IMG/VR virus record: IMGVR_UViG_3300032285_001775
Location: 1 to 22,336 of that record
Direction: 5' to 3' (one strand)
Length of the DNA: 22,336 bases
Source of the DNA: a virus
Position 1 is the stretch's first letter. Every line of letters begins with the position of its first letter. Under the pieces are notes generated by a model that was not told where the DNA came from, did no database searches, and worked only from the letters and a program-made list of their open reading frames with translations. The translations under genes were made by a program, and so were the position numbers. Below, in pieces: positions 1,280 to 14,998 of this stretch.

Positions 1280-1588
1280 TTATACTTTTAAAACTCCTTT
1301 ATTGAGTTCAAAATTTTCTAAGTCAGTTTGAGCAGTTGCGAAAGCCTTGCCTCGATATAATAAGTTATCATTTTCGTTGATTGTAACCTCAAAAGATTGG
1401 CCCTCTTTTAAAATTGGCTCATTAAATTTCAATATTAATATATTATTTTGGTAAAATGCGTCTAATATTTCAATCTCAAAAATAATATCTCGTAACTCAT
1501 CACGCAAAAAAAATGTCAATTCGCCTCCATTATAGGATCGAGGGATGCATTTATATTGATAAGGCCTTGTTAAATTAAATATCCACAT
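1280..1588 (-). CDS. Small phage structural protein of unknown role (102 aa)
   Basis: The protein begins MWIFNLTRPYQYKCIPRSYN. The frame stays open further upstream, but that extension would read through a terminator hairpin (1621-1649) and the conserved promoter-like motif, so I place the start at the ATG at 1588 that ends the TATATATATATG element. The sequence is rich in beta-type alternation, with FFLRDELRDIIFEIE at about residues 27-41 and LKEGQSFEVTI at about 60-70. It resembles short proteins found beside tail or head genes in Bacteroidetes phages (pattern EG.S.E.TI....NL.YRGKAF). I know of no demonstrated function for that family. Its position between the tail-tube candidate and the portal suggests a virion or assembly role. 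The portal begins 5 bases after its stop. Confidence 0.65.
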   Translation of the reverse strand: MWIFNLTRPYQYKCIPRSYNGGELTFFLRDELRDIIFEIEILDAFYQNNILILKFNEPILKEGQSFEVTINENDNLLYRGKAFATAQTDLENFELNKGVLKV

Positions 1589-1620
1589 ATATATATAACT
1601 AAAAAATACCTTTTTGTAAC
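1586..1620 (-). promoter_or_regulatory. Conserved late promoter-like motif, site A (102-aa/portal unit)
   Basis: On the minus strand the site reads GTTACAAAA, then 11 bases, then AGTTATATATATATG, where the last ATG is the start codon of the 102-aa gene. The ACAAAA-N11-AGTTATA arrangement recurs with the same spacing at three other late-unit starts. The site directly follows a terminator hairpin, as expected for a new transcription start. It could instead be a translation leader, but the copy before the 77-aa gene is separated from its ATG, which favours a DNA element. Confidence 0.6.
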
Positions 1621-1649
1621 AAAAAAAGCCACCGAAGTGACTTTTTTTT
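1621..1649 (-). terminator. Rho-independent terminator with TTCG loop
   Basis: The minus strand has AAAAAAA-GTCAC-TTCG-GTGGC-TTTTTTT: a five-base stem (one G-U pair) on a UUCG tetraloop, extended by A-T pairs and ending in a T-run. It sits 21 bases after the stop of the probable tail-tube gene and just before motif site A. By symmetry it could also act on the plus strand. Confidence 0.85.
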
Positions 1650-1669
1650 AACAAACTATGAAAGAAAAA

Positions 1670-2194
1670 TTAGGAAACAACCGCTGAACTAACTAAAGTC
1701 ATTAAAGCCGTTTTAGTTGCTGAGTCTAAAAATGGAGACAAATTGCTCTCTTCTCCTGTAATTGTAAGAGTGAAACCTGATAAATCGGCACCAGCTCCTC
1801 CGGTTACTTTTGTGCAGTTTGCCATTGTTCCGTTAGCTGCACCAACTAAAAGAATATTTCCGTTATAATCCTCTACGAAAACGTAAGGACGGCCAGCGCA
1901 AATTAATTGAACTTGAGCTTGTAAATCAGCCGATAATTTTGGAAGTGTAACCGCTAAAGATTGAGCGTTTAAAAATGTTCCGTTATCCTGTGAGCTTGTT
2001 CCAGTCTCTGTTAATGTATTTGTAGTCGCTTTTACTTCGTATTTGAAAACATCCGCTAAAGATCCCAAGCTCGTAACTTGGTGAGCTGCAATTACAAAAT
2101 CATAATCGTCATAATTGGCGAAGTATAAATTTTTGTAACCACCTCTTTGATCTTTACATCCTAGAAGTTTTCCTTTTGATATTAGACAAGACAT
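1670..2194 (-). CDS. Probable major tail (tube) protein (174 aa)
   Basis: The protein begins MSCLISKGKLLGCKDQRGG and continues YKNLYFANYDDYDF. The opening (cysteine-containing, C.D..GG.K..YFANYDD), the central SLAVTLPKLSADLQAQVQL (about 96-114), the VEDYNGNILLVGAANG segment and the end LTITGEE match a family common in Bacteroidetes phages. I read it as the tail-tube subunit that polymerises around the tape measure. The size fits tube proteins, and the sequence is beta-rich with many Thr, Ser and Gly. It is a single-gene unit with terminator hairpins on both sides, which suits a protein made in many copies. The assignment as tube rather than another abundant structural protein is inference. 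Confidence 0.65.
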   Translation of the reverse strand: MSCLISKGKLLGCKDQRGGYKNLYFANYDDYDFVIAAHQVTSLGSLADVFKYEVKATTNTLTETGTSSQDNGTFLNAQSLAVTLPKLSADLQAQVQLICAGRPYVFVEDYNGNILLVGAANGTMANCTKVTGGAGADLSGFTLTITGEESNLSPFLDSATKTALMTLVSSAVVS

Positions 2195-2213
2195 ATATAT
2201 ATGATTTTTTATT
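2191..2213 (-). promoter_or_regulatory. Degenerate late motif, site F (tail-tube gene)
   Basis: The minus strand has AATCATATATATATG ending in the start codon of the tube gene. This aligns with the AGTTATATATATATG half of the conserved motif, but no ACAAAA lies 11 bases upstream: the MCP terminator hairpin occupies that place. It is either a weak or degenerate copy, or simply the AT-rich start context used by several late genes. Confidence 0.3.
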
Positions 2214-2242
2214 AAAAACCGCCCAATTTAATGAGCGGTTTT
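2214..2242 (-). terminator. Rho-independent terminator after the major capsid gene
   Basis: The minus strand has AAAACCGC, a 12-base loop, GCGGTTTT and then TTAATAAAAAAT. The 8-bp stem is perfect and flanked by an A-run and a T-run. It lies 13 bases beyond the stop codon of the capsid gene and 20 bases before the tail-tube start, so it separates these two abundant messages. Confidence 0.85.
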
Positions 2243-2254
2243 GTAGTTAATTAA

Positions 2255-3151
2255 TTAGTCTAAAGATAACCAAACGATTTCTTCAGCGTTGTAGTATCCA
2301 ACTCCGTAGTTGTAAACAACTTTTCCTCTTACTTTACCAGTAAGTAATCCGATTTCGTCCTCATCAACCAAAGCAACTTGGTTATGATCTGCCAATAAAC
2401 CAGTTGCGAAAACTAAGTTTTTCTTTTCGTAGATTACAACTGAATTACTTGGTAATCCATTTAAAACTGTCAATGTGTGACGTCCGAAAGCCAAAGCAAA
2501 ATCAGAATTTCCATTACCATAAGTAATACCCTGAGTTGACAAATAGAAAGCATAAGCCTGAGCAACGTCTGGAGAAACCGCAACGATTAATTCCTTATTT
2601 CTCAAAGCAACTGGAACAGCGTTTAAAGCTGGTTTCAAATATTTTGTCAATACGTTAGCCTCAGTAACCGCAGCGTCAGCAGTTGGCTTGTTAACGTCTC
2701 CGTCAGCTGTGAATAAATCTAAAAATCCAGGTAATTCAGTACCTCTCCAGATTTCAGTTTCTAATTTTTCACCGATAGCTCCTAAAACTTCAGCTTGTAT
2801 TGCGTCCATTATATCGCTTGGTGCTGTAGAATTTGCAGCTCCTGAGCCCATAATTCCGTCAGACCAAGTCTGTCTGAAATCTTCTTTACAAACGTCAAAA
2901 TCATTTTTGAATTTGAAAGGCTCAATAGTATTTTCGTTTAATACGATTGTTCCAGCTGGATTGAATCCACAAGAATAAGCCGTTGTTCCGTCTGTGTATG
3001 CGATTTTACGCAAAGACATTTTAGAGTTAACATTTTCTGCGATTGTTACCGCTTGTTTTTCAATTGTGTCAATCGTTTTAAACGCTTGACCGATAATCAT
3101 ACCGGCATCCTTTCCGTTATAATTTGAAGTTACACTAGTAGTTGTAGCCAT
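2255..3151 (-). CDS. Major capsid protein (298 aa)
   Basis: The protein forms the icosahedral shell. It starts MATTTSVTSNYNGKDAG and continues with an alpha-helical arm (AFKTIDTIEKQAVTIAENV). The core includes DVCKEDFRQTW (about 86-96) and ETEIWRGTE (about 131-139), typical of capsid proteins of Bacteroidetes siphophages. The later beta-rich half has ELIVAVSPDVAQAYAFYLS and ends VWLSLD. The length fits an HK97-fold capsid protein without a long removable delta domain, which agrees with a scaffold region carried by the neighbouring protease gene. It lies 10 bases after the protease stop and is followed by a strong terminator. Codons are regular and the composition is slightly richer in G and C than its neighbours, as expected for a highly expressed gene. 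The HK97 fold is inferred from family resemblance. Confidence 0.85.
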   Translation of the reverse strand: MATTTSVTSNYNGKDAGMIIGQAFKTIDTIEKQAVTIAENVNSKMSLRKIAYTDGTTAYSCGFNPAGTIVLNENTIEPFKFKNDFDVCKEDFRQTWSDGIMGSGAANSTAPSDIMDAIQAEVLGAIGEKLETEIWRGTELPGFLDLFTADGDVNKPTADAAVTEANVLTKYLKPALNAVPVALRNKELIVAVSPDVAQAYAFYLSTQGITYGNGNSDFALAFGRHTLTVLNGLPSNSVVIYEKKNLVFATGLLADHNQVALVDEDEIGLLTGKVRGKVVYNYGVGYYNAEEIVWLSLD

Positions 3152-3161
3152 TTTTTAAAAT

Positions 3162-4283
3162 TTAATTTTTTAAGTTATTTAAGATTTTTTGTGATCTAGT
3201 TAATTTCACATTTTTATTTGAAGTTTCAGCAACTTCCGGCTTTGCTTTTGTTGACGCTTTCACTTCAACTTGAGTAGTTTTAACCTCAGCAATTTGAGCG
3301 CTTAATTCTGTGCGAATTGCCTCGATTTGTTTTGAAACTTCAACGCTCATATTGGTAACGATTGCTTTAATCATTTCCTCTGTTGACATTTCAACAGCCT
3401 CCGCCTCAGCTGGCATAGCGTCAGGCGCTACCTCTTCAACCATTGCGTCTTTAATTTCAGCAATAATACCCTCTTGAGTAATTACTAAAATTCTTCCGTC
3501 CTCAAGTTCGTGTTCTCCAACTGGAGCCGGAACTTTGTCTCCATTTTCAGCAACGATAAAAACCGCTTGCTCTGGCTCGAAAGCCTCAGCCTCTAAAATA
3601 GTGACACCATCTTTTAGCATCATTGTAGCCATTGTTACTTCTACATTTTCAGTAGTTTCAACCGCCTCAACTTGCTCGTTTTCGTTCGACATTTTAATCG
3701 ATGCGAAACCCTCTTTTATCGCGTTAACGATAGTTTCTAAATTCATATTTATTTCTGATTTTAAATTTACTTTCTCCATATCAAAGACTCCGTCAATCGA
3801 AAATCCTTTGACTTTACCAGTCTTAACGTAGTCGTTCCAAATCTCGTCGTTATTGACTTTCATTAATCCAAACAACGTACCTACTGGCTCATTAAATCCA
3901 TATAAAACGGATTTGTCGTGTACCTCATCCTCTTTTATCCAAGTCTCAACAAATGTAACATTTGGAATTGACTTTCCGGAATGTTCAATTGTTGAATTAT
4001 TTTGATAACCTTGTTGTACAAAATTATGTTGAACTTGTTTAATTGTCTCCTTTGGAAAGGTGATATTATATTCGTGTCCGTCTTGATTTCTGTATATCAA
4101 TTGGTCCGGTATTAAAATTGGCCCTACTAATATTCTTTGCTCCTCGTTAATAGTTGCAAGTTTGATTTCTTTATTTTTTGAAAGTGATATAAAATTCACT
4201 TCAATAGCCGGATCACTAACTAACGAGATTGCATAGACGCCCTCGTTATCCTCTTCGTTAAATAAAACTTTGTAAGTCTCCAT
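3162..4283 (-). CDS. Prohead serine protease (XkdF/S78-like) with C-terminal scaffold region (373 aa)
   Basis: The protein should mature the capsid by cleaving scaffold material inside the prohead. Its opening METYKVLFNEEDNEGVYAIS and VSDPAIEVNFI match the phage XkdF-like protease family (Peptidase_S78_2). Candidate catalytic residues are His101 (IEHSG) and Ser162 (VKGFSIDG). The FVETWI segment at 111-116 is also typical. After about residue 175 the sequence changes: a short beta module (about 215-285, with EPEQAVFIVAENG and EDGRILVITQEG) and then an acidic, coiled-coil-like helical tail (MSTEEMIKAIV, VSKQIEAIRTELSAQIAEV) and a basic end. I infer that the second half is the scaffold. It is the first gene of a two-gene unit with the capsid protein, behind conserved motif site C. 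Confidence 0.85.
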   Translation of the reverse strand: METYKVLFNEEDNEGVYAISLVSDPAIEVNFISLSKNKEIKLATINEEQRILVGPILIPDQLIYRNQDGHEYNITFPKETIKQVQHNFVQQGYQNNSTIEHSGKSIPNVTFVETWIKEDEVHDKSVLYGFNEPVGTLFGLMKVNNDEIWNDYVKTGKVKGFSIDGVFDMEKVNLKSEINMNLETIVNAIKEGFASIKMSNENEQVEAVETTENVEVTMATMMLKDGVTILEAEAFEPEQAVFIVAENGDKVPAPVGEHELEDGRILVITQEGIIAEIKDAMVEEVAPDAMPAEAEAVEMSTEEMIKAIVTNMSVEVSKQIEAIRTELSAQIAEVKTTQVEVKASTKAKPEVAETSNKNVKLTRSQKILNNLKN

Positions 4284-4319
4284 ATATACTATAACTTTTT
4301 TTTATTGTTTTGTTATAAA
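4281..4319 (-). promoter_or_regulatory. Conserved late promoter-like motif, site C (protease/capsid unit)
   Basis: On the minus strand, ACAAAA is followed by 11 bases and AGTTATA, then GTATATATG, whose ATG starts the protease gene. The spacing is identical to that of sites A, D and E, although the 11 bases between are A-rich here and T-rich in the others. That makes the two outer blocks the conserved part. It follows the terminator-like hairpin of the tape-measure gene. Confidence 0.6.
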
Positions 4320-4326
4320 CTTTTTA

Positions 4327-4346
4327 CATTAAATTTTAATTTAATG
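4327..4346. repeat. Palindrome in the tape-measure/protease spacer
   Basis: The 20 bases CATTAAATTTTAATTTAATG form a perfect inverted repeat with 9-base arms. On both sides is a copy of TATAACTTTTTTTTATT (4290-4306 and about 4348-4363). The 136-base spacer between the tape-measure and protease genes therefore contains the motif site, a duplicated half motif, this palindrome and a hairpin. It could be an operator, but in such AT-rich DNA chance is a real alternative. Confidence 0.4.
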
Positions 4347-4372
4347 ATATAACTTTTTTTTATTTTTAAACT

Positions 4373-4408
4373 TATAACCTTAAAAAAAAAATAAATTTTA
4401 AGGTTATA
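4373..4408 (-). terminator. AT-rich terminator-like hairpin after the tape-measure gene
   Basis: TATAACCTTAAAA and its exact complement form a 13-bp stem with a 10-base loop, 12 bases after the tape-measure stop. The minus-strand continuation is AT-rich with short T-runs but lacks a clean T-tract, so termination would be weaker than at the other two hairpins. It is symmetrical and could also act on the plus strand. Confidence 0.55.
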
Positions 4409-4419
4409 GCTTTAATTTT

Positions 4420-6429
4420 TTATCCCATTGAGGCGTTATTTATAATATTTCTATTTAACGCCTGACCTGTTGTAACGGCTCCAGCTACAACAAACGCTTG
4501 TACTGGTTGTTGATCTTGGTTAGCTATTGATTGAGCAATTTGATTCGGTCCGCTTGGCCCAACTACATTAAAACTTGGTGCAGTCATTCCGCCTCCTCCG
4601 GTTGGTGCTGTAGCTCCTCCCTCTCCTCCGCCTCCTCCTGGTATTGGAGTCGCAATAATATCCTTAACCGCTTTAAATCCTGTCGCGGCAATAATTGCGA
4701 CGTTTGCAATTTTAAGTCCAATTTCAAAAGGCGTCGTCGTTTTGGTTGCAAGCTCTGCGGAGATACCCTGATAAGTATTAATTAAAGCGGCTGCCGCTGC
4801 CATTGCCTTACCGGCTGCCGTATTTTTACCCAATAAATCAGCTCCTTTATTTAAAGTTTCAGAAGTTTTGGCAAATAAAGCCGCTTTAGCTGCCGCCTCA
4901 GCTTTTGCAATATCCTCCCTTGACTTTGCCAAGCCTTTAACTTTGTCATTATATTGCTCTTCTGTTATTACTTTGTCATCGAGTTGCTTTTGATAAAGAG
5001 CTTGTTCTGCATCAATAGCCTCGATTTTGGCTTCGTAACTTGAATTCGAGTCGTTAATAATTTTCTCTAAGTCTGAGGCTTTTTTCTCATCGTCTTTTAG
5101 TCTAGCATTGTCGTCAATTTCTTTTAAATTTGTGAGATGCTGTTTTGTTAATTCCTCAGTCGATAAATTGTTCGCTTCTAAAATTGCTTTTTTCTCTAGA
5201 TATTCTCTGTTTTCTTTTTCAGCTGGAGTCTCTTTTGGTTTTAAACTATCCAAAATCTCCATTGCTTTTTTAGCCGAGTCCATATCCGCTGCAAGTTTAT
5301 CGTCTGCAACTTTTTTCAAAGCCGCTGCCTCTTCCTCAGCTTTTTTAGTTGCTGCCTCTTTTGCGTCGTCTTTTAATTTTTGACTATGCTCTTTTGCTTT
5401 ATCCGAAAACTCTTTATTGTGATTAGTTTGAGATTGTCTTATTTCAACCTGGTGACGATTTTGTATGTCTCTCCTCTCATCAAAAGCTTTCTGTACATTT
5501 TGATTTTGTTTGTTGTATTCTAAAATCGATTTGTTGGTTGTCTCTTGTTGTTTTTTAATTACTTCATCGTCGGCTCCGGATGCTTTCAACGATGCTAAAT
5601 AATTTTTATTTTTTTCGTAGGTATTAAACGCAATCGCTCGAGCGGATTTCTCATAAGCAATTTTCTCATCGATTAATTTAATCTCTAAGGCTCTAATTGA
5701 CGCAGCGCTTGCTCCTGAGGCTTTTGCCATTGCAAGCTCCTGACTTTGTTTTTTATCGAGTTCGCTGGAGTTTCTCTCCAAAGTTTTAGTTTGACTCTCT
5801 AAGGCCTTTTTATTATGATCAACCGCAGCGGTATTTTTAGCGGCAGCCGCTGAGCTTTCCTTAAAATAATTTACAAGCGCAACTCCGGCAGCAATTAAGG
5901 CAGCAATTCCGGCTACAATTGCGACGATTGGATTGGCAGCCATTGCAGCGTTCCAAAGCCATTGGCCCGCTGTTACTATTTTTTGAGTAATTGTATAAGA
6001 TTTTGCAACGGCTCCCAATTGTTTGAACGAGTCAACGCTCTCTCCGACTTGTTGCAAGCCTTGAGACAACGCCATTGCGCTTTGAACTTTTAATAGCGTT
6101 TGCTCAACTTCTTTAGATTGACCTCCAAATAAAGCCATACCTCCTTGAAGCGCAGCAAAACCTCCGGCAACTCCAGCCAAAGACGAAGTCAAAGCCTTGA
6201 ATTTAGCATCCGGATTAAAGGCATCCGTTAAGGCTTTTGCATCTCCTATTTTGTCTTTTAATTCGGCGGCTTTTTTCGCAGCATTTGCAGCCTCAACAGA
6301 AGTAACTCCAAATTTCTCGGACATTGTGGCGACTTCCGCTTGAGCTTGTTTTAATTGCGTGCGTAAACTTCCGACAGCCTCCTCCGCATTACTCTGAATA
6401 TTTATATCAATTACTTTCTCAATCGCCAT
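4420..6429 (-). CDS. Tail tape measure protein (669 aa)
   Basis: The protein sets tail length and is ejected ahead of the DNA. It begins MAIEKVIDINIQSNAEEAVG, continues with Ala-rich helices (residues 20-80) and a Gly/Ala segment SSLAGVAGGFAALQGGMALF (82-101), and has one strongly hydrophobic stretch at about 166-188 (ANPIVAIVAGIAALIAAGVA). Residues about 200-540 are highly charged and coiled-coil-like, rich in Lys, Glu and Ala. The end has a second Ala-rich helix and a Gly-rich linker (PIPGGGGGEGG). These are the usual marks of tape measures. The length is short for the class and predicts a tail of roughly 100 nm by the usual rule of about 0.15 nm per residue. It overlaps the 48-aa gene by 19 bases and is followed by a hairpin. 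Confidence 0.85.
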   Translation of the reverse strand: MAIEKVIDINIQSNAEEAVGSLRTQLKQAQAEVATMSEKFGVTSVEAANAAKKAAELKDKIGDAKALTDAFNPDAKFKALTSSLAGVAGGFAALQGGMALFGGQSKEVEQTLLKVQSAMALSQGLQQVGESVDSFKQLGAVAKSYTITQKIVTAGQWLWNAAMAANPIVAIVAGIAALIAAGVALVNYFKESSAAAAKNTAAVDHNKKALESQTKTLERNSSELDKKQSQELAMAKASGASAASIRALEIKLIDEKIAYEKSARAIAFNTYEKNKNYLASLKASGADDEVIKKQQETTNKSILEYNKQNQNVQKAFDERRDIQNRHQVEIRQSQTNHNKEFSDKAKEHSQKLKDDAKEAATKKAEEEAAALKKVADDKLAADMDSAKKAMEILDSLKPKETPAEKENREYLEKKAILEANNLSTEELTKQHLTNLKEIDDNARLKDDEKKASDLEKIINDSNSSYEAKIEAIDAEQALYQKQLDDKVITEEQYNDKVKGLAKSREDIAKAEAAAKAALFAKTSETLNKGADLLGKNTAAGKAMAAAAALINTYQGISAELATKTTTPFEIGLKIANVAIIAATGFKAVKDIIATPIPGGGGGEGGATAPTGGGGMTAPSFNVVGPSGPNQIAQSIANQDQQPVQAFVVAGAVTTGQALNRNIINNASMG

Positions 6430-6557
6430 TTTAATAGATTTTTAAATAGTTGTAAATAGTTGTTTTTTAGTTCGTATTTTCCTTTAGCTGTCGCGATTAT
6501 TTCATTGTGTTCGTATTGCTCCGCGTGTTTGAGCATTTCTAAAATGTTATTTATCAT
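6411..6557 (-). CDS. Small protein between tail-hub and tape-measure genes (48 aa)
   Basis: A 48-codon frame, MINNILEMLKHAEQYEHNEI and then IATAKGKYELKNNYLQLFKN, fills the gap between the 876-aa and tape-measure genes. Its ATG overlaps the stop of the upstream gene as TAATG, and its end overlaps the tape-measure start by 19 bases in another frame, so translation of all three is probably coupled. The product is predicted helical and basic at the C-terminus (LLKWRLRK). I do not recognise a family. The tight fit at both ends and the absence of any other gene in the gap support it being real. It might be a tail-assembly helper, but that is only from position. Confidence 0.6.
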   Translation of the reverse strand: MINNILEMLKHAEQYEHNEIIATAKGKYELKNNYLQLFKNLLKWRLRK

Positions 6558-9187: not shown

Positions 9188-10254
9188 ATAACGTCGTTAA
9201 TTAAATTATTTGAGAATTCAAAGTCAATTTCAAAGTTGATATTTTTATCTTTTAATTGAGTCTTATATGTTAACGATTGCGTTTTAATTGTAGCCGGTAT
9301 ATTATCAACCAAAATCGTATCACTTAACATAAGCTCTTGGATGAATTTATTATAATTTTCATAAACCCAGCCAGTATTGCAAGTAATTGACCAAGTTCCG
9401 TTTATATTAAAAGCCTTTGATTGGCCAATTAATGGATTATAATTGACGTTAGATTGCAATAAACTATATTTGCTCCCTTTGACATTTATTTTATTGGAAT
9501 GCGCTTTGAAAAATGTTAATTGCTGCCACCCTCCAAATCGATTAACGTAACTTACATTCACCGGAGTGTATTTGCACTCGTCTAATTTTTCAGTATAAAC
9601 CCTGTATAAAACTCCGTCGTCGTCGTTTTCAATCTCGCAGTAATCTGAGTTATTATAAGCAAGCGGAAGTCTATAATTATAATAATTTGCACTCGTTGCA
9701 GTTCTAAACGTATTGCTATTTAAAAGCGTTCCATTATTTAAATAATATTTTATACTAAAATTTATGCCCAAAGCGCTTTTTAAAATAAAATTGTAGTAAG
9801 GAATTAAATTGTAGTACTGAATTTTATAATTTGAATTATTATCGTAACCCAATAAAGATAAATTTGCGTAATCGTCATTCATATAATTTAATCCCTGACT
9901 TACTTCCGTATATCCATTAACTCCAATATAAACAACATTTGTCAATAAAGTGTAAGTACCGGCGACATTTTTATAAGTCTTAACTCTTACCAAACACCAG
10001 TCGGTATTGCTCTCAATTACCGGAGTGGCTGAGTAATTTACATTTATTTGGTTGATATATTCTAAAATATAAGGAGATATATTGTAGTTTGTCTCTGTCT
10101 GAGTAACTGAGGCAATATTTTCGCTCATTATGTAAGTCGGATTCGTTGGCTCTGTCGTTCCTTTGTTCCAAATAAACAATTCAACTTTGCTCCCTATTTG
10201 GCCTGTCTCGTTTATTATAATTTGAAACGGACTTCTAGCGCTAATTATATTCAT
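9184..10254 (-). CDS. Tail-associated structural protein (356 aa)
   Basis: The opening MNIISARSPFQIIINETGQI, followed by GSKVELFIWNKG and YNISPYILEYI (about 96-107 with preceding ETN), matches a family always found beside the hub-type tail protein in Flavobacterium-like phages. The family has no established function that I know. The product is Tyr/Asn/Ser-rich and beta-type, with no signal peptide, membrane segment or catalytic motif. Near residues 225-250 is a stretch (KYTPVNVSYVNRFGGWQQLT) that recurs in this family. It starts 2 bases after the stop of the gp10-like gene and overlaps the 876-aa gene by four bases, so the pair is translated together. A tail-tip or baseplate role is likely by association. 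Confidence 0.6.
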   Translation of the reverse strand: MNIISARSPFQIIINETGQIGSKVELFIWNKGTTEPTNPTYIMSENIASVTQTETNYNISPYILEYINQINVNYSATPVIESNTDWCLVRVKTYKNVAGTYTLLTNVVYIGVNGYTEVSQGLNYMNDDYANLSLLGYDNNSNYKIQYYNLIPYYNFILKSALGINFSIKYYLNNGTLLNSNTFRTATSANYYNYRLPLAYNNSDYCEIENDDDGVLYRVYTEKLDECKYTPVNVSYVNRFGGWQQLTFFKAHSNKINVKGSKYSLLQSNVNYNPLIGQSKAFNINGTWSITCNTGWVYENYNKFIQELMLSDTILVDNIPATIKTQSLTYKTQLKDKNINFEIDFEFSNNLINDVI

Positions 10255-10255
10255 T

Positions 10256-10777
10256 TTATATCTCTTTAAGTGTAAAATTTAAAAACGACTCCAAATCTAG
10301 GCCGTATTTGTCTGCAATATTATTGTCAAAATTCTTATATTCATCGTCAAACGCATTCCTAAAAAATTTTGTCTCGTACGTTCCGGTCCTATTTATCGAA
10401 TTTGTTATCGAAGTGACCATTAATTTACGATTAACAAATTGACCTCCGGCTCCTCTGACTCCTTGAATGCCTTTTCTCAATACCCATTTGTCAATCGCAC
10501 CCCTTGAGGCATTCGCTTTATATGGAGAGTTCGGAGCTTTTGAACTTGACTCGCTTCCTTTTGTTCCAAAATCCAACTCTTTCCAGTAATCCTCAGCATA
10601 AAAATCAAACTCAATAGAATTTTTATTCTCTTTGGCTTTATAATCTAACGACTTTGACAATTGACCGGAAGCGTTGTGTGTTCCGTAACGTCCTCCAGTC
10701 TTTAAATTTAGCCTAGCTCTCTCAATTACTAACTTGCCAAACTCGTCAAGGGCCTGTTGTACGTTTTTAATCTCCAT
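10256..10777 (-). CDS. HK97 gp10-like head-tail connector/tail component (173 aa)
   Basis: The protein begins MEIKNVQQALDEFGKLVIER. The N-terminal helix followed by a basic RARLNLKTGGRYGTHNASGQ segment, LSKSLDYKA, then DFYAEDYWKELDFGTKGS, fits the HK97 gp10 family of neck/tail-completion proteins. The length is in the usual range. The frame extends 5 codons further to a TTG, but I chose the ATG at 10777 because it overlaps the stop of the upstream gene (ATGGAGATTAA) and lies in an ordinary coupling position. Gp10-like proteins help join head and tail, and its position right after the probable tail terminator agrees. There is no duplicate in the window. Confidence 0.75.
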   Translation of the reverse strand: MEIKNVQQALDEFGKLVIERARLNLKTGGRYGTHNASGQLSKSLDYKAKENKNSIEFDFYAEDYWKELDFGTKGSESSSKAPNSPYKANASRGAIDKWVLRKGIQGVRGAGGQFVNRKLMVTSITNSINRTGTYETKFFRNAFDDEYKNFDNNIADKYGLDLESFLNFTLKEI

Positions 10778-11231
10778 TACAACAAACTCCAAACTCGTTA
10801 TTCGGTACGCTTATCTCAATATCGCACTTCCAGCCGTCAAGCGCATTTGTAAACGCTAATAAAATTGGTTGCAAAGTCGGATCGTTTTGCAATTCAATAT
10901 CGTTGTCGTTTCTTTGCATCCGCATTTTTGTAATCATATAATTTAAAATGGCGTGGCAAGTGTTAAGGTTATCGAGTTCGTTATCGTTCCCCAAAAATTT
11001 GTCTTTAACATTTACCTTTGACATATTTCGAATATCTACAATAGCAACCTCGAAAGTAAAATTAACAACTCCTGAGCTAATTGAAGAGCTGAGGATATTA
11101 ATGTGAGCAAGTGGAAAAATATTTTTCTTAAGATTGTCAATTATATCGGTGCCGTGAGTTATCGTATTTAAAAGAGGCGCGCTTTCGAGCGTGCTTTTTA
11201 TATATTCTATTGCCTGGTAAAATGCTCTCAT
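10767..11231 (-). CDS. Probable tail terminator / tail completion protein (154 aa)
   Basis: The protein starts MRAFYQAIEYIKSTLESAPL. It has an N-terminal helix, a beta stretch (VVNFTFEVAIVDIRN, about 55-69), a helical TCHAILNYMITKMRM segment, a PILLAFTNALDGWKCDIEIS stretch and a cysteine-containing end (VCCNGD). This layout, and the alternation of helices with a beta sheet, fit the small tail-terminator fold that caps the tail tube and joins it to the head. I base the call on that pattern, its size, and its place between the tail chaperones and the gp10-like gene. Direct sequence similarity to well-studied terminators is low. Translation is coupled to the preceding frameshift ORF by an ATGA overlap. 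Confidence 0.55.
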   Translation of the reverse strand: MRAFYQAIEYIKSTLESAPLLNTITHGTDIIDNLKKNIFPLAHINILSSSISSGVVNFTFEVAIVDIRNMSKVNVKDKFLGNDNELDNLNTCHAILNYMITKMRMQRNDNDIELQNDPTLQPILLAFTNALDGWKCDIEISVPNNEFGVCCNGD

Positions 11232-11488
11232 TTTTTAAAATGGTTTTTAATTTGTTTTGCCTCCTCTTTGCTTTCGTCAATTAAGTAAGATAATAATGTG
11301 AGTGATTCGTGAAGAGGCTCGCTTCCAACTTCTCGAGGCTTGATTCCAAGCTCTCTCGAAAGTCGAACAAATGATTGGTACCAACCCCAGCGCTCGTGAA
11401 AGCCTCCTCGAGAGATTTCCCCTCCCTCATCGCCTTGCTCTCCAAATGCGATAGGATATTGTTCAATAATTCCTTGCTTAAAGTCCAA
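11228..11488 (-). CDS. Tail assembly chaperone, -1 frameshift extension (GT-like)
   Basis: This 86-codon frame has no ATG at all and begins at a T-run inside the chaperone gene, so it is best read as the C-terminal part of a fusion made by -1 ribosomal slippage. The segment GFHERWGWYQSFVRLSRELG (about residues 28-47), followed by EVGSEPLHESLTLLSYLIDE, matches the T-type domain of tail chaperones in related phages (pattern GWY.s...L......l..l.l...L..L.y..D). Slippage on T TTT TTT at 11494-11488 would fuse 162 residues of the upstream protein to this part, giving about 248 residues. Such fusions bind the tape measure and tail-tube subunits during tail assembly. The stop overlaps the next start as ATGA. 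A short independent product from the TTG at 11488 is less likely. Confidence 0.75.
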   Translation of the reverse strand: MDFKQGIIEQYPIAFGEQGDEGGEISRGGFHERWGWYQSFVRLSRELGIKPREVGSEPLHESLTLLSYLIDESKEEAKQIKNHFKK

Positions 11489-11973
11489 AAAAAAAGAATT
11501 GATCCTGTTACAATATGCATCGGCACATCATTAAATAACTCCGCTTTGCTTTCGTCTCCGTTGTAGTCCTCAATTTGATAAAATGGCAAAGCCTTTTTTG
11601 TTATTGGGCGATACATTACCGACATTAATAAACTTAAATTCTCATCCATTCCGAGTAGTGAGTCCATTGTCGCGTGTTCTCCAATTGTCATTTTGTCTAA
11701 GTTTGGGATAAATCCATACTCAACGCCGTCCATTTTAAAAATGCGAGTTAACTTTGGTTTTTGATCCAATACCTTAGCCAAATTTTCGACAATTTCCGCG
11801 AAGTCGTTAACCGGTATTTTCATAACATCGGCCACGCTTAAATTACAAAAGATTGCAATCATTTGAATGCAAACAAAAGTCTCATCGTCTTTATTTTCTT
11901 TTACTACTTTTAAATATCTCAAATATTGAGACAATTTAATCTCATTTAAATCCGTTGGAATTATAACTCTCAT
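11281..11973 (-). CDS. Tail assembly chaperone (G-like, 230 aa)
   Basis: The protein opens MRVIIPTDLNEIKLSQYLRY. It is a helical protein whose first 150 residues (IQMIAIFCNLSVADVMKI, FIPNLDKMTIGEHATMDSLL, LLMSVMYRPITK) match tail-chaperone proteins of Bacteroidetes phages. The zero-frame end, GSILFFWTLSKELLNNILSH and a long helix, is also typical. Chaperones of this type coat the tape measure before tube assembly and are not part of the mature virion. The T9 run encoding LFFW at about residues 160-163 is the slippage site for the longer product. The ATG at 11973 is the end of conserved motif site D, so this gene opens the tail transcription unit. Confidence 0.8.
   Translation of the reverse strand: MRVIIPTDLNEIKLSQYLRYLKVVKENKDDETFVCIQMIAIFCNLSVADVMKIPVNDFAEIVENLAKVLDQKPKLTRIFKMDGVEYGFIPNLDKMTIGEHATMDSLLGMDENLSLLMSVMYRPITKKALPFYQIEDYNGDESKAELFNDVPMHIVTGSILFFWTLSKELLNNILSHLESKAMREGKSLEEAFTSAGVGTNHLFDFRESLESSLEKLEASLFTNHSHYYLT
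11488..11494 (-). promoter_or_regulatory. -1 ribosomal frameshift site (T TTT TTT)
   Basis: The minus strand reads ATT CTT TTT TTT TGG ACT in the chaperone frame. The heptamer T TTT TTT fits the X XXY YYZ rule exactly, and slipping back one base gives TTT TTG GAC, the frame of the GT-like extension, which stays open to 11228. I found no convincing downstream hairpin by eye. The nine-T run could also cause slippage by the polymerase, or hide a sequencing error. Confidence 0.75.
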
Positions 11974-12002
11974 ATATATATAACTAAAAAAAGTGATTTT
12001 GT
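11971..12002 (-). promoter_or_regulatory. Conserved late promoter-like motif, site D (tail unit)
   Basis: The minus strand has ACAAAA, the 11 bases TCACTTTTTTT, then AGTTATATATATATG, ending in the start codon of the tail chaperone. The central TCACTTTTT is shared with site E, and the last 15 bases are identical to those of site A. It occupies the 38-base gap after the large terminase gene. Confidence 0.6.
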
Positions 12003-12011
12003 TTATTAATT

Positions 12012-13175
12012 TTATGTAATAATAACGCGACGGCTTTTATTTATTGCGAGGCTCATCATTGCGAAGTACCTCAGCGCGTCAATTGCGTGGTTAAATTCAT
12101 CAATAGGTCGGTTGAGTTTTTTGCCTGTCTTATCTACGTCCCAACTATAACTCCGAAGCTCCTTTATTAAATTTATACTTGACTTTGTAACTAGAATTTC
12201 CTTTTGCTGTAGTACTGAAATTCCATAATTGATTGAGTCGGCTCCTTTTACAACTGGTTTAATATTGTATCCGGCGCGTCTTATCTCCTCAATACTTTTT
12301 GGCTCGGCTGAGTCGGCCCAAATTGGAGCGGTCCTTTCCTGTCGCATTAGTCGAATTATATCGGAGTTCAAAAGTGAGGTTGAGTAAATCATTTCGTCAA
12401 CGATAATCTTACCATTATAATCGTAGACTCCAACGTGAGCGGTTGGGTCATTGCTGTACCCAAAATCGAGTCCGCTTCCTAAGAATTTTGCCTCAGGAGG
12501 TATTGTATCGATTTGCTCCCAGTTTTGGAATATGACTCCCTCAAGTGATCCGAGCTGACCGAGTCCGTAAACATTCCACCAATTGTCCCAATATGTTGAG
12601 GTCGCTGCTTTGTCTTTTGCTTTCTCAATCTCTTTAACGATTGCTGGATCGAGGGCCTCATTATCTTTGTACGTCAATATTACAAAGTCGCTGTCTTCAT
12701 CGTTTAGGAGTTCCGTTTGTACCCAAAATTCATTTGTCGGATTGTAGTCAAGGTATATGAATTTTTTAGTCCTTACGGCTAATTGTTGATAGCTTTCAAA
12801 ATCGATATTATTGCACTCATTTACAAATAGAATATCTCTCCTGGCTCCTCTCAATTTGTCGGGTTGATCCACGCTGAAAAATTCAATATAACTATTGTTT
12901 GAGAATGTATATTTTAGTGAGGATCGATTGAAATTAGCGTCTCGATAATTGTCAGTTAATAACATTATCTTTTGGAAGTCTTTTAAAGCTCCACGTTTCA
13001 AATGCGGAATGCTCTCACTAACAATACTTATCTCCGAGAATGGATTTTGTATTGCGTAAGTAATTAAAAGAGGTAAGATTGAGAAAGTTTTTGAGCTTGA
13101 CGTTCCTCCCTGTACAATCCGAACTCGTTTTTTTAGTTTGGCGATTTTACTCTGTGCCGTTGTTTTCTGGAACAT
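12012..13175 (-). CDS. terL: Terminase large subunit (387 aa)
   Basis: This is the ATP-driven DNA-packaging motor with an attached nuclease. The ATPase has a Walker A-type P-loop GGTSSSKT at 23-30 and a Walker B-type strand DILFVNEC at 114-121, in which the usual Asp before the catalytic Glu120 is Asn119. The coupling motif is probably YLDYNPT at 141-147. The nuclease half has LDFGYSNDPT (Asp237), WADSAEPKSIEEI (Asp288) and DEFNHAIDALRY (359-370, with Asp359, His363 and Asp366), the metal-binding acidic residues of the RNase H-like fold. Length and motif order fit the PBSX/Terminase_3-like family with a Terminase_3C domain. It starts 29 bases inside the small-subunit gene. The packaging strategy (cos or pac) cannot be told from the window. 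Confidence 0.93.
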   Translation of the reverse strand: MFQKTTAQSKIAKLKKRVRIVQGGTSSSKTFSILPLLITYAIQNPFSEISIVSESIPHLKRGALKDFQKIMLLTDNYRDANFNRSSLKYTFSNNSYIEFFSVDQPDKLRGARRDILFVNECNNIDFESYQQLAVRTKKFIYLDYNPTNEFWVQTELLNDEDSDFVILTYKDNEALDPAIVKEIEKAKDKAATSTYWDNWWNVYGLGQLGSLEGVIFQNWEQIDTIPPEAKFLGSGLDFGYSNDPTAHVGVYDYNGKIIVDEMIYSTSLLNSDIIRLMRQERTAPIWADSAEPKSIEEIRRAGYNIKPVVKGADSINYGISVLQQKEILVTKSSINLIKELRSYSWDVDKTGKKLNRPIDEFNHAIDALRYFAMMSLAINKSRRVIIT

Positions 13176-13443
13176 CCAAATCTAAGGAGTTAAAAATTGG
13201 TTTCTCAATACTAATATTTTGATCAATCGTTTGCTTTGGCATTCCGAAGAAGTATTTAAACCACAATTCAATGGCCCATTTTTCACCAGCTTGCATCGCT
13301 GCCTCAAGTTGTAAGATTGCCTCCGGTAAAAAAGGTTTCAATCTTTCGTAAGTGTCTTGCATTTCGGATTTTGTCATCAAACGCTTATCGTCTGGACGCA
13401 TTGCTTTTGTGCTGTGTCCTCCGTTTAACTTTCTTTTATCCAT
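13147..13443 (-). CDS. terS: Probable terminase small subunit (98 aa)
   Basis: The call rests mainly on position: it lies immediately upstream of, and overlaps by 29 bases, the large subunit. The protein begins MDKRKLNGGHSTKAMRPDDK. It has a basic N-terminus, then helices (LMTKSEMQDTYERLKPFLPE, ILQLEAAMQAGEKWAIELWF) and ends with the acidic tail LDLDVPENNGTE. A KYFFGMPKQTID segment at about 63-74 is like short TerS proteins that end their oligomerisation domain with a G.P.Q element. It is smaller than most small subunits and has no evident classic helix-turn-helix, so DNA recognition may rely on the N-terminal basic region. Small subunits bind the packaging site as a ring and stimulate the motor. 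Confidence 0.75.
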   Translation of the reverse strand: MDKRKLNGGHSTKAMRPDDKRLMTKSEMQDTYERLKPFLPEAILQLEAAMQAGEKWAIELWFKYFFGMPKQTIDQNISIEKPIFNSLDLDVPENNGTE

Positions 13444-13459
13444 AATTAATATAAATTAA

Positions 13460-13711
13460 CTAATTAATTTCAGAAGTACCAGAATATTTTCCTAAAATGA
13501 TTTTATTATTAGTTAAAAACATCGACGTAAAGAATTTATAGCCTCTGTAAGACTTTGTTTTTAATAATTTGAACAAGTTATCCGGCATCCATATTTCATT
13601 AGCTGATACGTCCTCTGGTGCGTTGTCAATTACAGCATCAAGAAACGAATAAAATTCCTTTTGCTGTTGTTTTTTCGTTGATTTTGTCGACTTGCTCTTT
13701 GTTGTTGTCAT
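13460..13711 (-). CDS. Hypothetical protein (83 aa)
   Basis: I do not recognise this protein. It starts MTTTKSKSTKSTKKQQQKEF: a Lys/Ser/Thr-rich, probably disordered N-terminus followed by a folded part with FYSFLDAVIDNAPEDVSANE, PDNLFKLLKTKSYRGYKFFT and IILGKYSGTSEIN. The frame is open further upstream (a second ATG at 13762), but that would lengthen the overlap with the HAD-like gene. The ATG at 13711 gives a 74-base overlap, still large, so the start is uncertain. It lies between the HAD-like gene and the terminase pair and is probably co-transcribed. The lysine-rich tail could bind nucleic acid, but this is only composition. Confidence 0.5.
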   Translation of the reverse strand: MTTTKSKSTKSTKKQQQKEFYSFLDAVIDNAPEDVSANEIWMPDNLFKLLKTKSYRGYKFFTSMFLTNNKIILGKYSGTSEIN

Positions 13712-13943
13712 AATGTTCCCTAATTTTATACTTTTGTACAAAGGACCATTTGTCGCGTCCATTTGTAAAATAAATTTTATCGATGCCAAGCTCTTTTGCT
13801 GTACTAAATAAGTCGGAATTGTCTCCGGATTCGTCTCGAGCTGTTAAAATTATGACGTCTTTACCCTCAGATATAAATTTGGAGGCTAGTTCTTTGCCTT
13901 TTTTAGTTGAGAGAGTGCCGTCGTAGTCAAAACTAATTGGCAT
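13638..13943 (-). CDS. HAD-like phosphatase (101 aa)
   Basis: The HAD signature is clear: FDYDGTLS at 5-12 supplies the nucleophile Asp6 and acid/base Asp8, IILTARDE at 31-38 gives the motif II Thr34, and EHYDNN at 76-81 (Asp79) resembles the metal-binding acidic motif. The protein is short, lacking a cap domain, like the small phosphatases of phages that resemble the 3'-phosphatase half of polynucleotide kinase. A role in nucleotide or DNA/RNA end metabolism is therefore possible, but the substrate is unknown. The start overlaps the preceding gene by 11 bases, and its 3' end overlaps the 83-aa gene by 74 bases. The C-terminal NEKTTAKGILFVS is probably not part of the catalytic core. Confidence 0.75.
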   Translation of the reverse strand: MPISFDYDGTLSTKKGKELASKFISEGKDVIILTARDESGDNSDLFSTAKELGIDKIYFTNGRDKWSFVQKYKIREHYDNNKEQVDKINEKTTAKGILFVS

Positions 13944-14307
13944 AATTGAACAATTTATATAAATCTTTTATAATTGTCTCGTGGACCTTTGAGCAAGTTG
14001 GGCAATTTGAATTATCAATACCAAAATAATGTAAATATAAGCCATTTAAATAGTCAACGTCCTCGAAGTTTAACTCTGTTCGTCTTGCATCGATAATTCT
14101 TTGACCTTTTGCCTCTAAAAATAGGCTAAAATGTTCTTTATCGTTTTGAGTCATTTCAGATTTTACCTTTTTAAAGTTAAAAAGTCTGTTTAGTCCAAAT
14201 TGTCTCTCTTTACAATCTAAGCAAGGCTCAATTCCAACCGCTGAGGTTAAATTTGCGACAACATCGCCAAGTCCTTGAATTTCTTTTTTAGTCTTTCTTT
14301 TTGCCAT
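13933..14307 (-). CDS. Conserved phage protein with two CxxC motifs (124 aa)
   Basis: The opening MAKRKTKKEIQGLGDVVANL, followed by TSAVGIEPCLDCKERQFGLN, matches a family seen beside terminase genes in Bacteroidetes phages (pattern GLGD.V......GI.PC..C..R...LN). Its function is not known to me. Two cysteine pairs, Cys29/Cys32 and Cys102/Cys105 (NCPTCSK), could together form one zinc site. The middle is helical and charged, with QRIIDARRTELNFEDVDYLN. Being next to the sigma-like gene and the terminase, it may be a regulator or a packaging accessory. It overlaps the sigma-like gene by 20 bases. Confidence 0.65.
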   Translation of the reverse strand: MAKRKTKKEIQGLGDVVANLTSAVGIEPCLDCKERQFGLNRLFNFKKVKSEMTQNDKEHFSLFLEAKGQRIIDARRTELNFEDVDYLNGLYLHYFGIDNSNCPTCSKVHETIIKDLYKLFNYAN

Positions 14308-14716
14308 TTAATTTGTTTTTTACCATTTTATTAATCCGGTGTATCGTTTGAATATGGATTCCTGTTTGTCTCGACAATTCTCTCTGTCCTATTAGTGTCG
14401 ATTGCTCAAACATTGTGCGTTCATACCAGGTGAGATCTTTGGAGAGTTCTGAGTAATCAATTCCCTCATTATATTGCTCGTCTTCGATTTCAAATTTACT
14501 GAAATCGTCGATTAAAATATCGTTATTTTTCAGAGAGTCATAAAATAATGATCTCAAAGTTACAAAAATATATCCGTCTGAGACAGGAATAGTCCTCTCG
14601 CTTAATTTTATGTACATATTTTGCACCAACTCATCTGCTAAATCTTTGCATTTGCATATTTGCAAAGCCATTTTTCGCCATTGCTGGTCCTTTTTAGCAA
14701 GTTCGTGAATTATCAA
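14288..14716 (-). CDS. Sigma-70-like transcription factor (142 aa)
   Basis: Two regions match the sigma-70 fold. Region 2-like: residues about 18-65, with LQICKCKDLADELVQNMYIK (the DAEDLVQ-type core-binding helix) and GYIFVTLRSLFYDSLKNN (the -10-binding helix). Region 4-like: residues about 95-136, with LTWYERTMFEQ, then a helix-turn-helix GQRELSRQTGIHIQTIHRIN. An acidic linker (IDDFSKFEIEDEQYNEG) separates them. It is shorter than normal ECF sigma factors but has both DNA-binding parts. I infer a late-gene activator for the conserved ACAAAA-N11-AGTTATA motif. The start is a TTG overlapping the upstream stop (TTGA). The frame is closed just upstream, and the next ATG (codon 16) would trim region 2. 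It could also be an anti-sigma-like or polymerase-binding factor. Confidence 0.7.
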   Translation of the reverse strand: MIIHELAKKDQQWRKMALQICKCKDLADELVQNMYIKLSERTIPVSDGYIFVTLRSLFYDSLKNNDILIDDFSKFEIEDEQYNEGIDYSELSKDLTWYERTMFEQSTLIGQRELSRQTGIHIQTIHRINKMVKNKLNGKKKD

Positions 14717-14946
14717 AGCCTCATCGGATTAAAAAACTCACTTAAAAAATGCAAAATGTGGGTTTCATTTTCTATATAATAAGCTGTACCTCTAATAATT
14801 AACACAATTTCCTCAGATGACTCAACCCAATATCCGTCAATACTATCGACGTTGACTCTAAAATCGACAAATGAGCCGTTGAGTCCGAGATTATCGTCCT
14901 CTTGTTCTAACCACATTTGAGTCGATATCGTGTAAGGTTTAATCAT
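14713..14946 (-). CDS. Hypothetical protein (77 aa)
   Basis: I do not recognise this protein. It begins MIKPYTISTQMWLEQEDDNL and is acidic, with beta-like stretches (SFVDFRVNVDSIDGYWVES, IVLIIRGTAYYIEN) and a helical end (ILHFLSEFFNPMRL). I chose the ATG at 14946. A TTG five codons upstream is in frame, but it lies within the TATATTTG promoter box. It is the first gene of the unit that leads into the sigma-like gene, and its TGA overlaps that gene's start codon. The region ahead contains both a host-type promoter and late motif site E. A regulatory role would fit, but nothing in the sequence shows it. Confidence 0.6.
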   Translation of the reverse strand: MIKPYTISTQMWLEQEDDNLGLNGSFVDFRVNVDSIDGYWVESSEEIVLIIRGTAYYIENETHILHFLSEFFNPMRL

Positions 14947-14950
14947 TTGA

Positions 14951-14983
14951 CAAATATACAAATTATATTAATATAACTACAAA
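14951..14983 (-). promoter_or_regulatory. Bacteroidetes-type promoter before the sigma-like unit
   Basis: TTTG (14983-14980) and TATATTTG (14958-14951, matching TAnnTTTG) are 21 bases apart, as in the promoter at 18448-18416. The -7 box ends only 4 bases before the ATG at 14946, so the transcript would begin at or just after that codon. The message could be leaderless, or the 77-aa gene could start at a later codon. It overlaps late motif site E. Confidence 0.55.
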
Positions 14984-14998
14984 AAGTGATTTTGTAAC
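14972..14998 (-). promoter_or_regulatory. Conserved late promoter-like motif, site E (sigma-like unit)
   Basis: The minus strand reads GTTACAAAA, the 11 bases TCACTTTTTGT, then AGTTATA. This is the same spacing as sites A, C and D, but here the start codon is 25 bases further on, and the sequence after AGTTATA changes from the TATATATG seen elsewhere. The motif is thus conserved independently of a start codon, which favours a promoter. Confidence 0.6.

Follow-up and report, generated by a model that had tools for sequence, protein, structure and literature searches.

What reads the four copies of ACAAAA-N11-AGTTATA in this viral DNA, each standing ahead of a gene unit, is the question raised by this locus. 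We analysed the whole 22,336-nt stretch of IMG/VR record IMGVR_UViG_3300032285_001775 (the window). Scanning both strands revealed four exact copies, all on the minus strand and none elsewhere (Table 1), while 1000 Markov-1 simulations of the window gave a mean of 0.007 copies and a maximum of 1; the reversed control motif had no copy in the window. Thus, the four sites listed in the first-pass annotation are real. The start codons also lie where it had placed them, 5 nt past AGTTATA for the ATGs at 1588 and 11973, 6 nt for that at 4283, and 25 nt for that at 14946. The enrichment was limited to exact copies; with 2 mismatches the window had 8 sites versus 3.5 expected. A general sigma-70 consensus scan of the window (114 matches versus 83 expected) was uninformative in AT-rich DNA.

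Table 1. Candidate promoters and the genes of their units in the window
Feature	Position	Strand	Remarks
Portal protein	1..1275	-	phrog_33693, E 5e-86; extends beyond the window
102-aa protein, gene 1 of portal unit	1280..1588	-	phrog_31097, weak match, E 0.0013
Candidate late promoter 1, TACAAAA-N11-AGTTATA	1594..1617	-	precedes 102-aa gene and portal; exact copy; site shared in relatives L006, L010, L011
Probable major capsid protein, promoter 2 unit	2255..3151	-	phrog_11320 (unknown function); position after protease
Head maturation protease	3162..4283	-	phrog_34096, E 3e-9; 35% identity to P12024L gp01
Candidate late promoter 2, TAACAAAA-N11-AGTTATA	4290..4313	-	precedes protease/capsid; exact copy, and in relatives
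Tail unit gene 1, putative tail chaperone	11281..11973	-	phrog_32199; downstream of TerL in relatives holding TerL
Candidate late promoter 3, AACAAAA-N11-AGTTATA	11979..12002	-	precedes tail unit; exact copy, and in relatives
124-aa CxxC/CxxC protein, conserved sigma-gene neighbour	13933..14307	-	phrog_32048
Predicted ECF-type sigma factor, 142 aa	14288..14716	-	sigma2 ~1-66, sigma4 ~95-138
77-aa gene, sigma operon gene 1	14713..14946	-	overlaps sigma gene start
TATATTTG, host sigma-A -7 box	14951..14958	-	perfect match, 4 nt upstream of sigma-operon ATG 14946
Candidate late/autoregulatory promoter 4, TACAAAA-N11-AGTTATA	14972..14995	-	precedes sigma operon; exact copy; site in most relatives

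In 80 relatives, the motif occurred 71 times in the forward and once in the reverse orientation, and not at all when the N11 was changed to 9, 10, 12 or 13 bases. Rather than being scattered in genes, the copies precede tail, protease/capsid, 102-aa/portal and sigma-operon units, as in the window. When sites were tallied jointly by spacer and by distance to the ATG, a single peak dominated, at (15,7) with 44 distinct sites; the next cell had 10. The two blocks had been taken as the conserved elements; their spacing, (A/T)ACAAA and the GT(T) core are indeed invariant in the relatives, but the first base of box 2 may be A, C or T, and tail-promoter variants such as CGTTATA, TGTTATA and AGTCTTA leave the spacing unchanged. 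The reading that suits the motif best is that of an ECF-like promoter, (A/T)AC-N15-NGTTA-N7-ATG. We had considered a MotA-like geometry, as the 12-nt gap between ACAAAA and GTTATA seemed too short for -35 and -10 elements, and dropped it as first choice because the count from AC to GT is 15, near ECF spacing.

A scan of a viral collection with the bare motif (14 fixed bases) returned, among the matches listed, loci that looked mostly unrelated, and the ATG was then fixed as well. With the ATG fixed, N11 gave 145 loci, 127 of which had homologues of this phage's proteins, and N13 gave 34, only 4 of which had such homologues. A scan of a genome collection for the identity of the host yielded a single, distant MAG contig from Bacteroidetes and a second match that is probably false; no clear motif was seen in either.

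A candidate to read such a promoter is encoded in the window itself. The first-pass annotation had called one product sigma-like, and profile and fold comparisons back this identity and refine it. The family profile matched Bartonella RpoE bound to NepR best (PDB 5uxx, 8e-6) and also matched SigR (1h3l, 2.5e-4) and other ECF sigmas, and the first 11 Foldseek matches of the predicted fold were all ECF sigmas (probability 1.00). Sigma70_r2 was detected in 18 of 22 family members (best 8.7e-9); the homology to sigma-70 region 2 holds at the level of the family profile, the window sigma by itself falling under the Pfam cut-off. ECF (group 4) sigmas are defined by having sigma2 and sigma4 only, with a linker of < 50 residues, and the predicted structure of the 142-aa protein comprises helices at 2-64 and 97-137 joined by a low-confidence linker of ~30 residues. 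Profiles and predicted structure thus both identify this protein as a sigma factor of the ECF type (sigma2 + sigma4). The promoter rule for this class, AAC at -35 and CGT at -10, is matched in full by the group of phage P12024L (AAC-N17-CGTT). In the window, AAC is present at two of the four sites and TAC at the other two, with AGTT as the -10 at all four; the base before GTT varies in relatives as described above.

Motif and sigma gene were also found together, as the first-pass annotation had expected, and every check it had proposed that sequence can answer favoured its reading. Among motif-bearing records of the family that are long enough to judge (18.5 kb or more), 13 of 13 encode the sigma, and the gene is present in TerL loci that reach far enough upstream. 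FpV9, whose TerL is 53% identical, has neither the sigma gene nor a motif peak. The family shows the genomic pattern of a phage-encoded late sigma/promoter system, in which a sigma gene and a phage-specific motif before structural units are inherited together.

Shared presence does not by itself tell the sigma apart from its 124-aa neighbour. The sites might be promoters at which another phage regulator, such as this CxxC/CxxC protein, binds ACAAA and either recruits host sigma-A or aids the phage sigma, in the style of MotA in T4. Its gene adjoins the sigma gene and accompanies it in TerL loci, and its paired cysteines are suggestive of metal binding; yet searches assigned it to no DNA-binding family, and at three of the four sites box 2 bears no resemblance to TAnnTTTG, the host -7 box. 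The cultured Nonlabens (Persicivirga) phages P12024L and P12024S, of the genus Inhavirus, speak to the same point. They share with the window phage matching terminase, portal, protease and tail genes, a homologous sigma (40% identical over the N-terminal half), and a late-type motif before equivalent units with 7 nt from GTTA to ATG, although their own motif, AAC-N17-CGTTA-N7-ATG, has a spacer of 17 against 15 in the window family. In P12024L, gp01 (the protease orthologue) is preceded by AAC-N17-CGTTA, and the gp05-portal unit, orthologous to the promoter 1 unit, carries a variant motif, gp05 being of the same family as the window 102-aa protein. Unlike in the window phage, the sigma gene of P12024L/S follows VRR-NUC with no motif found ahead of it, whereas the 124-aa homologue has its own copy. 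The layout in P12024L fits the sigma as activator and makes the 124-aa protein unlikely as the primary one. We thus consider a separate regulator improbable.

The position of the boxes relative to the start codon carries a further prediction. Box 2 starts 12 nt upstream of the AUG at 66 of 79 tail promoters, 24 of 27 protease promoters (13 nt at the other 3) and all 4 portal promoters. From this distance of 12-13 nt at the three structural units, +1 is predicted to coincide with the A of the AUG or to fall 1-2 bases from it. The late mRNAs would then be leaderless or nearly so, a leaderless unit being one whose start site is no more than ~5 nt from the AUG. In the window, the predicted +1 is the A of the ATG for promoters 1 (1588) and 3 (11973), and the ATG at 4283 or 1 base upstream for promoter 2; for promoter 4 it falls at ~14966, giving a leader of ~20 nt. 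Structural-unit messages thus probably begin no more than a base or two from the AUG. An L047-type subgroup (13 of the 79 tail promoters) has its AUG ~12 nt further downstream, so that these promoters would not yield leaderless messages. Leaderless mRNAs are rare in Flavobacteria, amounting to 5.5% in F. psychrophilum. We lean towards the view that this whole Bacteroidota phage lineage has a dedicated leaderless structural regulon. The ECF-type sigma would set +1 at the first base of the AUG, and the box-to-AUG distance would have stayed constant while spacer and -10 drifted. If so, late translation in a phylum that does not use Shine-Dalgarno sequences would rely largely on leaderless initiation.

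A fixed distance to start codons could also be expected of an A-rich, Kozak-like leader acting in translation of the mRNA, and Flavobacteria do use A-rich initiation contexts (PMC6847099). However, the upstream block stands 24-30 nt before the AUG, across a spacer fixed in length but free in sequence, which suits recognition of a DNA face; the sigma operon keeps the box pair though box 2 is 32 nt before its AUG; and between families the spacer varies (15, 17) while the ATG distance is constant. A translation signal is accordingly very unlikely. Still less credible is that only host-type promoters exist and the shared boxes are an AT-rich coincidence or a recent duplication of a single site, for although the genome is AT-rich and has many loose sigma-70-like matches, the simulation and the strict strand bias contradict this, and the motif is conserved, with changing spacers, in relatives down to 35% protein identity.

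The sigma operon combines two kinds of signal. The motif had been described as unlike Bacteroidetes promoters, and the three structural promoters indeed lack TAnnTTTG; at the fourth site, however, the separate box TATATTTG follows, so that host promoter sequence does occur here. A box matching TAHHTTTG, the host -7 consensus (PMC6847099), occurs 4 nt upstream of the sigma-operon ATG in 24 of 34 relatives. This tandem of host box and late motif suggests a host-driven start of the sigma operon plus feedback.

From the sites, their spacing, conservation and position, their co-occurrence with the sigma gene and the ECF-type fold, all read from sequence, we propose that the four sites are very probably promoters read by the ECF-type sigma that the phage itself encodes, working as follows. 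The TATATTTG promoter would be read early in infection by host sigma-A holoenzyme, yielding a first batch of sigma, which would join the host core polymerase. Domain 4 would contact (A/T)ACAAA and domain 2 NGTTA across the 15-nt spacer, and the units for portal, protease/capsid and tail would be activated, presumably late. In this phage and most relatives, the sigma would also activate its own operon, a positive feedback. The loop is not universal, because the relatives L043 and L044 lack the motif before the operon, and the region ahead of the P12024L sigma gene yielded none.

Replacement of the sigma factor during infection is the general logic shared with the late and middle systems of T4 gp55 and SPO1 gp28. 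The only motif of T4 late promoters is the -10, and they require gp33 and the sliding clamp; we know of no near-leaderless promoter placement in either system. Closer in kind are phiEco32 and phage 7-11, which likewise use a phage sigma with host core and their own promoters before structural genes, found through intergenic comparison; they are enterobacterial phages with a single extended -10, tAATGTAtA, and a fixed AUG distance is not mentioned in the description available (PMC4331800). EcfG and ECF group 4 resemble the window sigma in having two domains, with regions 1.1 and 3 missing, a promoter of two boxes whose AC and GT cores lie ~16 nt apart, and a promoter site ahead of their own operon, as in most relatives. 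EcfG promoters read GGAAC-N16-CGTT and tolerate -10 variants (PMC7083833), and a host ECF motif of F. psychrophilum likewise has a CGT -10 box (PMC9723704). In contrast to EcfG, the phage gene is positioned to drive structural genes, the spacer is 15 or 17 rather than 16, and box 1 is (A/T)ACAAA without GG; the promoter here abuts the start codon, and no anti-sigma was recognisable among the sigma-gene neighbours.

Bacteroidota dominate many waters and the gut, and late gene control in their phages is almost undescribed in the literature that we found. The system makes an exact and inexpensive prediction, that 5' ends fall on the AUG or beside it, and this bears on how initiation proceeds without Shine-Dalgarno sequences in this phylum. 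A small sigma with a distinct promoter could also give Flavobacteria an orthogonal system for expression. How ECF sigmas set spacing could be studied in the natural experiment of two related families, one with a spacer of 15 and the other of 17; sigma length was not linked to the spacer, group D having ~160 aa with 15 and P12024L 159 aa with 17. The sigma-promoter pair can be read by sequence in many environmental genomes and in the two cultured phages. In P12024L/S, the sigma is annotated merely as a hypothetical protein with Sigma-70 region 2.

The motif ACAAAA-N11-AGTTATA occurs exactly four times in the 22,336-base window, which comes from an IMG/VR virus record, always on the minus (coding) strand, and re-measurement confirmed the site coordinates and distances to start codons reported in the first-pass annotation. 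The reversed control motif was absent from the window, and 1000 Markov-1 simulations of the window gave exact copies at a mean of 0.007 and a maximum of 1; the four-copy motif is thus upheld. Allowing two mismatches gave 8 matches, little more than the 3.5 expected by chance, so that the claim depends on the exact copies and on the relatives.

A terminase (TerL) search yielded 80 loci with 78-100% TerL identity, which are phylogenetically non-independent and mostly metagenomic fragments. Across their 857 kb, the N11 motif was found in 71 forward copies and one reverse copy, while versions with N9, N10, N12 or N13, and the reversed control at N9-N13, gave none. These copies precede the same genes as in the window, namely the tail unit (the gene after TerL), the protease, the 102-aa/portal gene and the 77-aa/sigma operon, and the proposed association with structural units and the sigma operon extends to related phages. 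The spacer is fixed in length and variable in sequence. Because box 2 varies (AGTTATA, CGTTATA, TGTTATA, AGTCTTA) while the spacing holds, the core is best written (A/T)ACAAA-N-GT(T); in a distant subgroup, some protease promoters fit only with a weaker box 2 or with spacing one base shorter. When all viral contigs were scanned for AACAAAA-N11-AGTTATA-N5-ATG, at least 127 of at least 145 loci encoded homologues of the window phage's proteins, against 4 of 34 for the N13 control; among the matches listed, the 18 unrelated N11 loci represent the background level.

ECF sigma factors typically recognize AAC at -35 and CGT at -10 (PMC8103513; PMC4153023). Measured from AC to GT, the motif of the window reads (A/T)AC-N15-NGTTA. 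EcfG promoters have GGAAC-N16-CGTT, with variants including TGTT, CATT and GGTT (PMC7083833), and the cultured Nonlabens phage P12024L has AAC-N17-CGTTA in six copies plus one with N16. The latter precede gp01, gp05/portal, gp08, gp37, gp42, gp45 and gp46. Several of these units are orthologous by family (phrog_31097, portal, phrog_30964, phrog_35281, phrog_38559, phrog_32048), and gp01 is a protease 35% identical to that of the window. P12024L and P12024S encode a diverged sigma homologue (40% identity over the N-terminal half). The N17 pattern recurs in the uncultured relatives L486, L487, L488, L490 and L491 but was not found in the 4.7-kb L489. Together with the P12024L group, the distant records G004, G017 and G044, where a diverged sigma accompanies the motif (N15, 7 nt), provide independent support outside the TerL set.

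Profile matches and the predicted fold identify the 142-aa sigma-like product as being of ECF type. Searched against the PDB, a profile of 22 family members hit ECF sigmas; the strongest match was 5uxx (8e-6), Bartonella RpoE in complex with NepR, and SigR (1h3l) was also hit. Pfam Sigma70_r2 was detected in 18 of the 22, the window protein by itself falling under the cut-off. In an AlphaFold2 model (pLDDT 79), a weak linker connects two helical domains. The model's top 11 Foldseek matches in the PDB were all ECF sigmas at probability 1.00; E-values were only 1e-3 to 1e-2 and TM about 0.4, which is what a pair of domains without a fixed arrangement should give.

Motif and sigma gene also co-occur, as the annotation had anticipated. 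For 50 motif-bearing family records lacking sigma in the examined stretch, the full record was searched: sigma was present in 13/13 of at least 18.5 kb and, as a truncated copy, in one of 16.7 kb, the remainder being fragments of at most 17.0 kb. In the TerL set, sigma was found in loci reaching far enough upstream. FpV9, whose terminase is 53% identical and which has no sigma, gave no peak in the spacer-by-distance table. From sequence, then, the motif sites are real and well explained as predicted late promoters of the phage ECF-type sigma.

The commonest cell of that table, N15 with 7 nt from GTTA to ATG, held 44 distinct sites and the runner-up 10; the P12024L peak, at N17, likewise lies at 7 nt. 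The start of box 2 is 12 nt upstream of AUG at 66/79 tail, 24/27 protease (the other three at 13) and 4/4 portal sites; the exception is an L047-type subgroup (13/79 tail sites), with AUG about 12 nt further on. At ECF promoters the first base of box 2 lies near -12. If so here, the predicted +1 would be the A of AUG or at most 1-2 bases away, and the box 2-to-AUG distance predicts late mRNAs that are leaderless or nearly so. Leaderless mRNAs make up 5.5% in F. psychrophilum (PMC9723704), and in F. johnsoniae 87% of predicted transcripts have leaders longer than 10 nt (PMC6847099).

The fourth site lies 25 nt upstream of the sigma-operon ATG. A TAHHTTTG box stands 4 nt upstream of this ATG in 24/34 relatives, and with F. 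johnsoniae geometry (G at -5) the +1 predicted from the window's own host-type box would again be the A of AUG. In the simplest circuit, the host would drive the first expression of the operon and the phage sigma would then feed back on it. The motif is missing before the sigma operon in two relatives (L043, L044) and was not found before the P12024L sigma gene, so such feedback would not be essential in the lineage. Upstream of the operon in L036-L038, L040 and L045, the phage -10 and host -7 boxes overlap ([AC]GTTATATTTG), and two holoenzymes would thus compete for the same bases.

Further features of the window
Feature	Position	Strand	Remarks
Perfect host -7 box, TATATTTG	14958-14951	minus	between the fourth site and the sigma-operon ATG
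124-aa protein, two CxxC pairs	13933-14307		after the sigma gene, overlapping it
Strong hairpin with U run	1619-1648	minus	z -4.2; ends directly upstream of the portal promoter
Terminator-like hairpin, ACCGC...GCGGTTTTT	2195-2254	minus	between the genes for the capsid-like and 174-aa proteins

The 124-aa protein might act as a sigma cofactor; an anti-sigma or a packaging protein is also possible. Its P12024L homologue has its own predicted late promoter.

T4 and SPO1 encode sigmas that have late promoters of their own. So do phiEco32 and 7-11 (PMC4331800). New relative to these systems are a motif of ECF type, the Bacteroidota setting and the predicted near-leaderless placement; in the literature searched, we found no paper describing this variant.

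The hairpin abutting the portal promoter resembles a terminator, and its sequence recurs in the relatives L006, L010 and L011. After the second hairpin comes ATATATATATG, where the ACAAAA-N11-AGTTATA pair is absent. In most of L019-L022, L024-L029 and L031, a block containing inverted repeats of the GTACGTAATAACGTAC type is inserted between the TerL stop and the tail promoter; it may be an operator or a mobile repeat. In L047-L070, TerL and the tail gene are about 400 bases further apart, and this extra stretch often includes a host-type TATATTTGC box or a terminator-like hairpin, upstream of the phage-type promoter.
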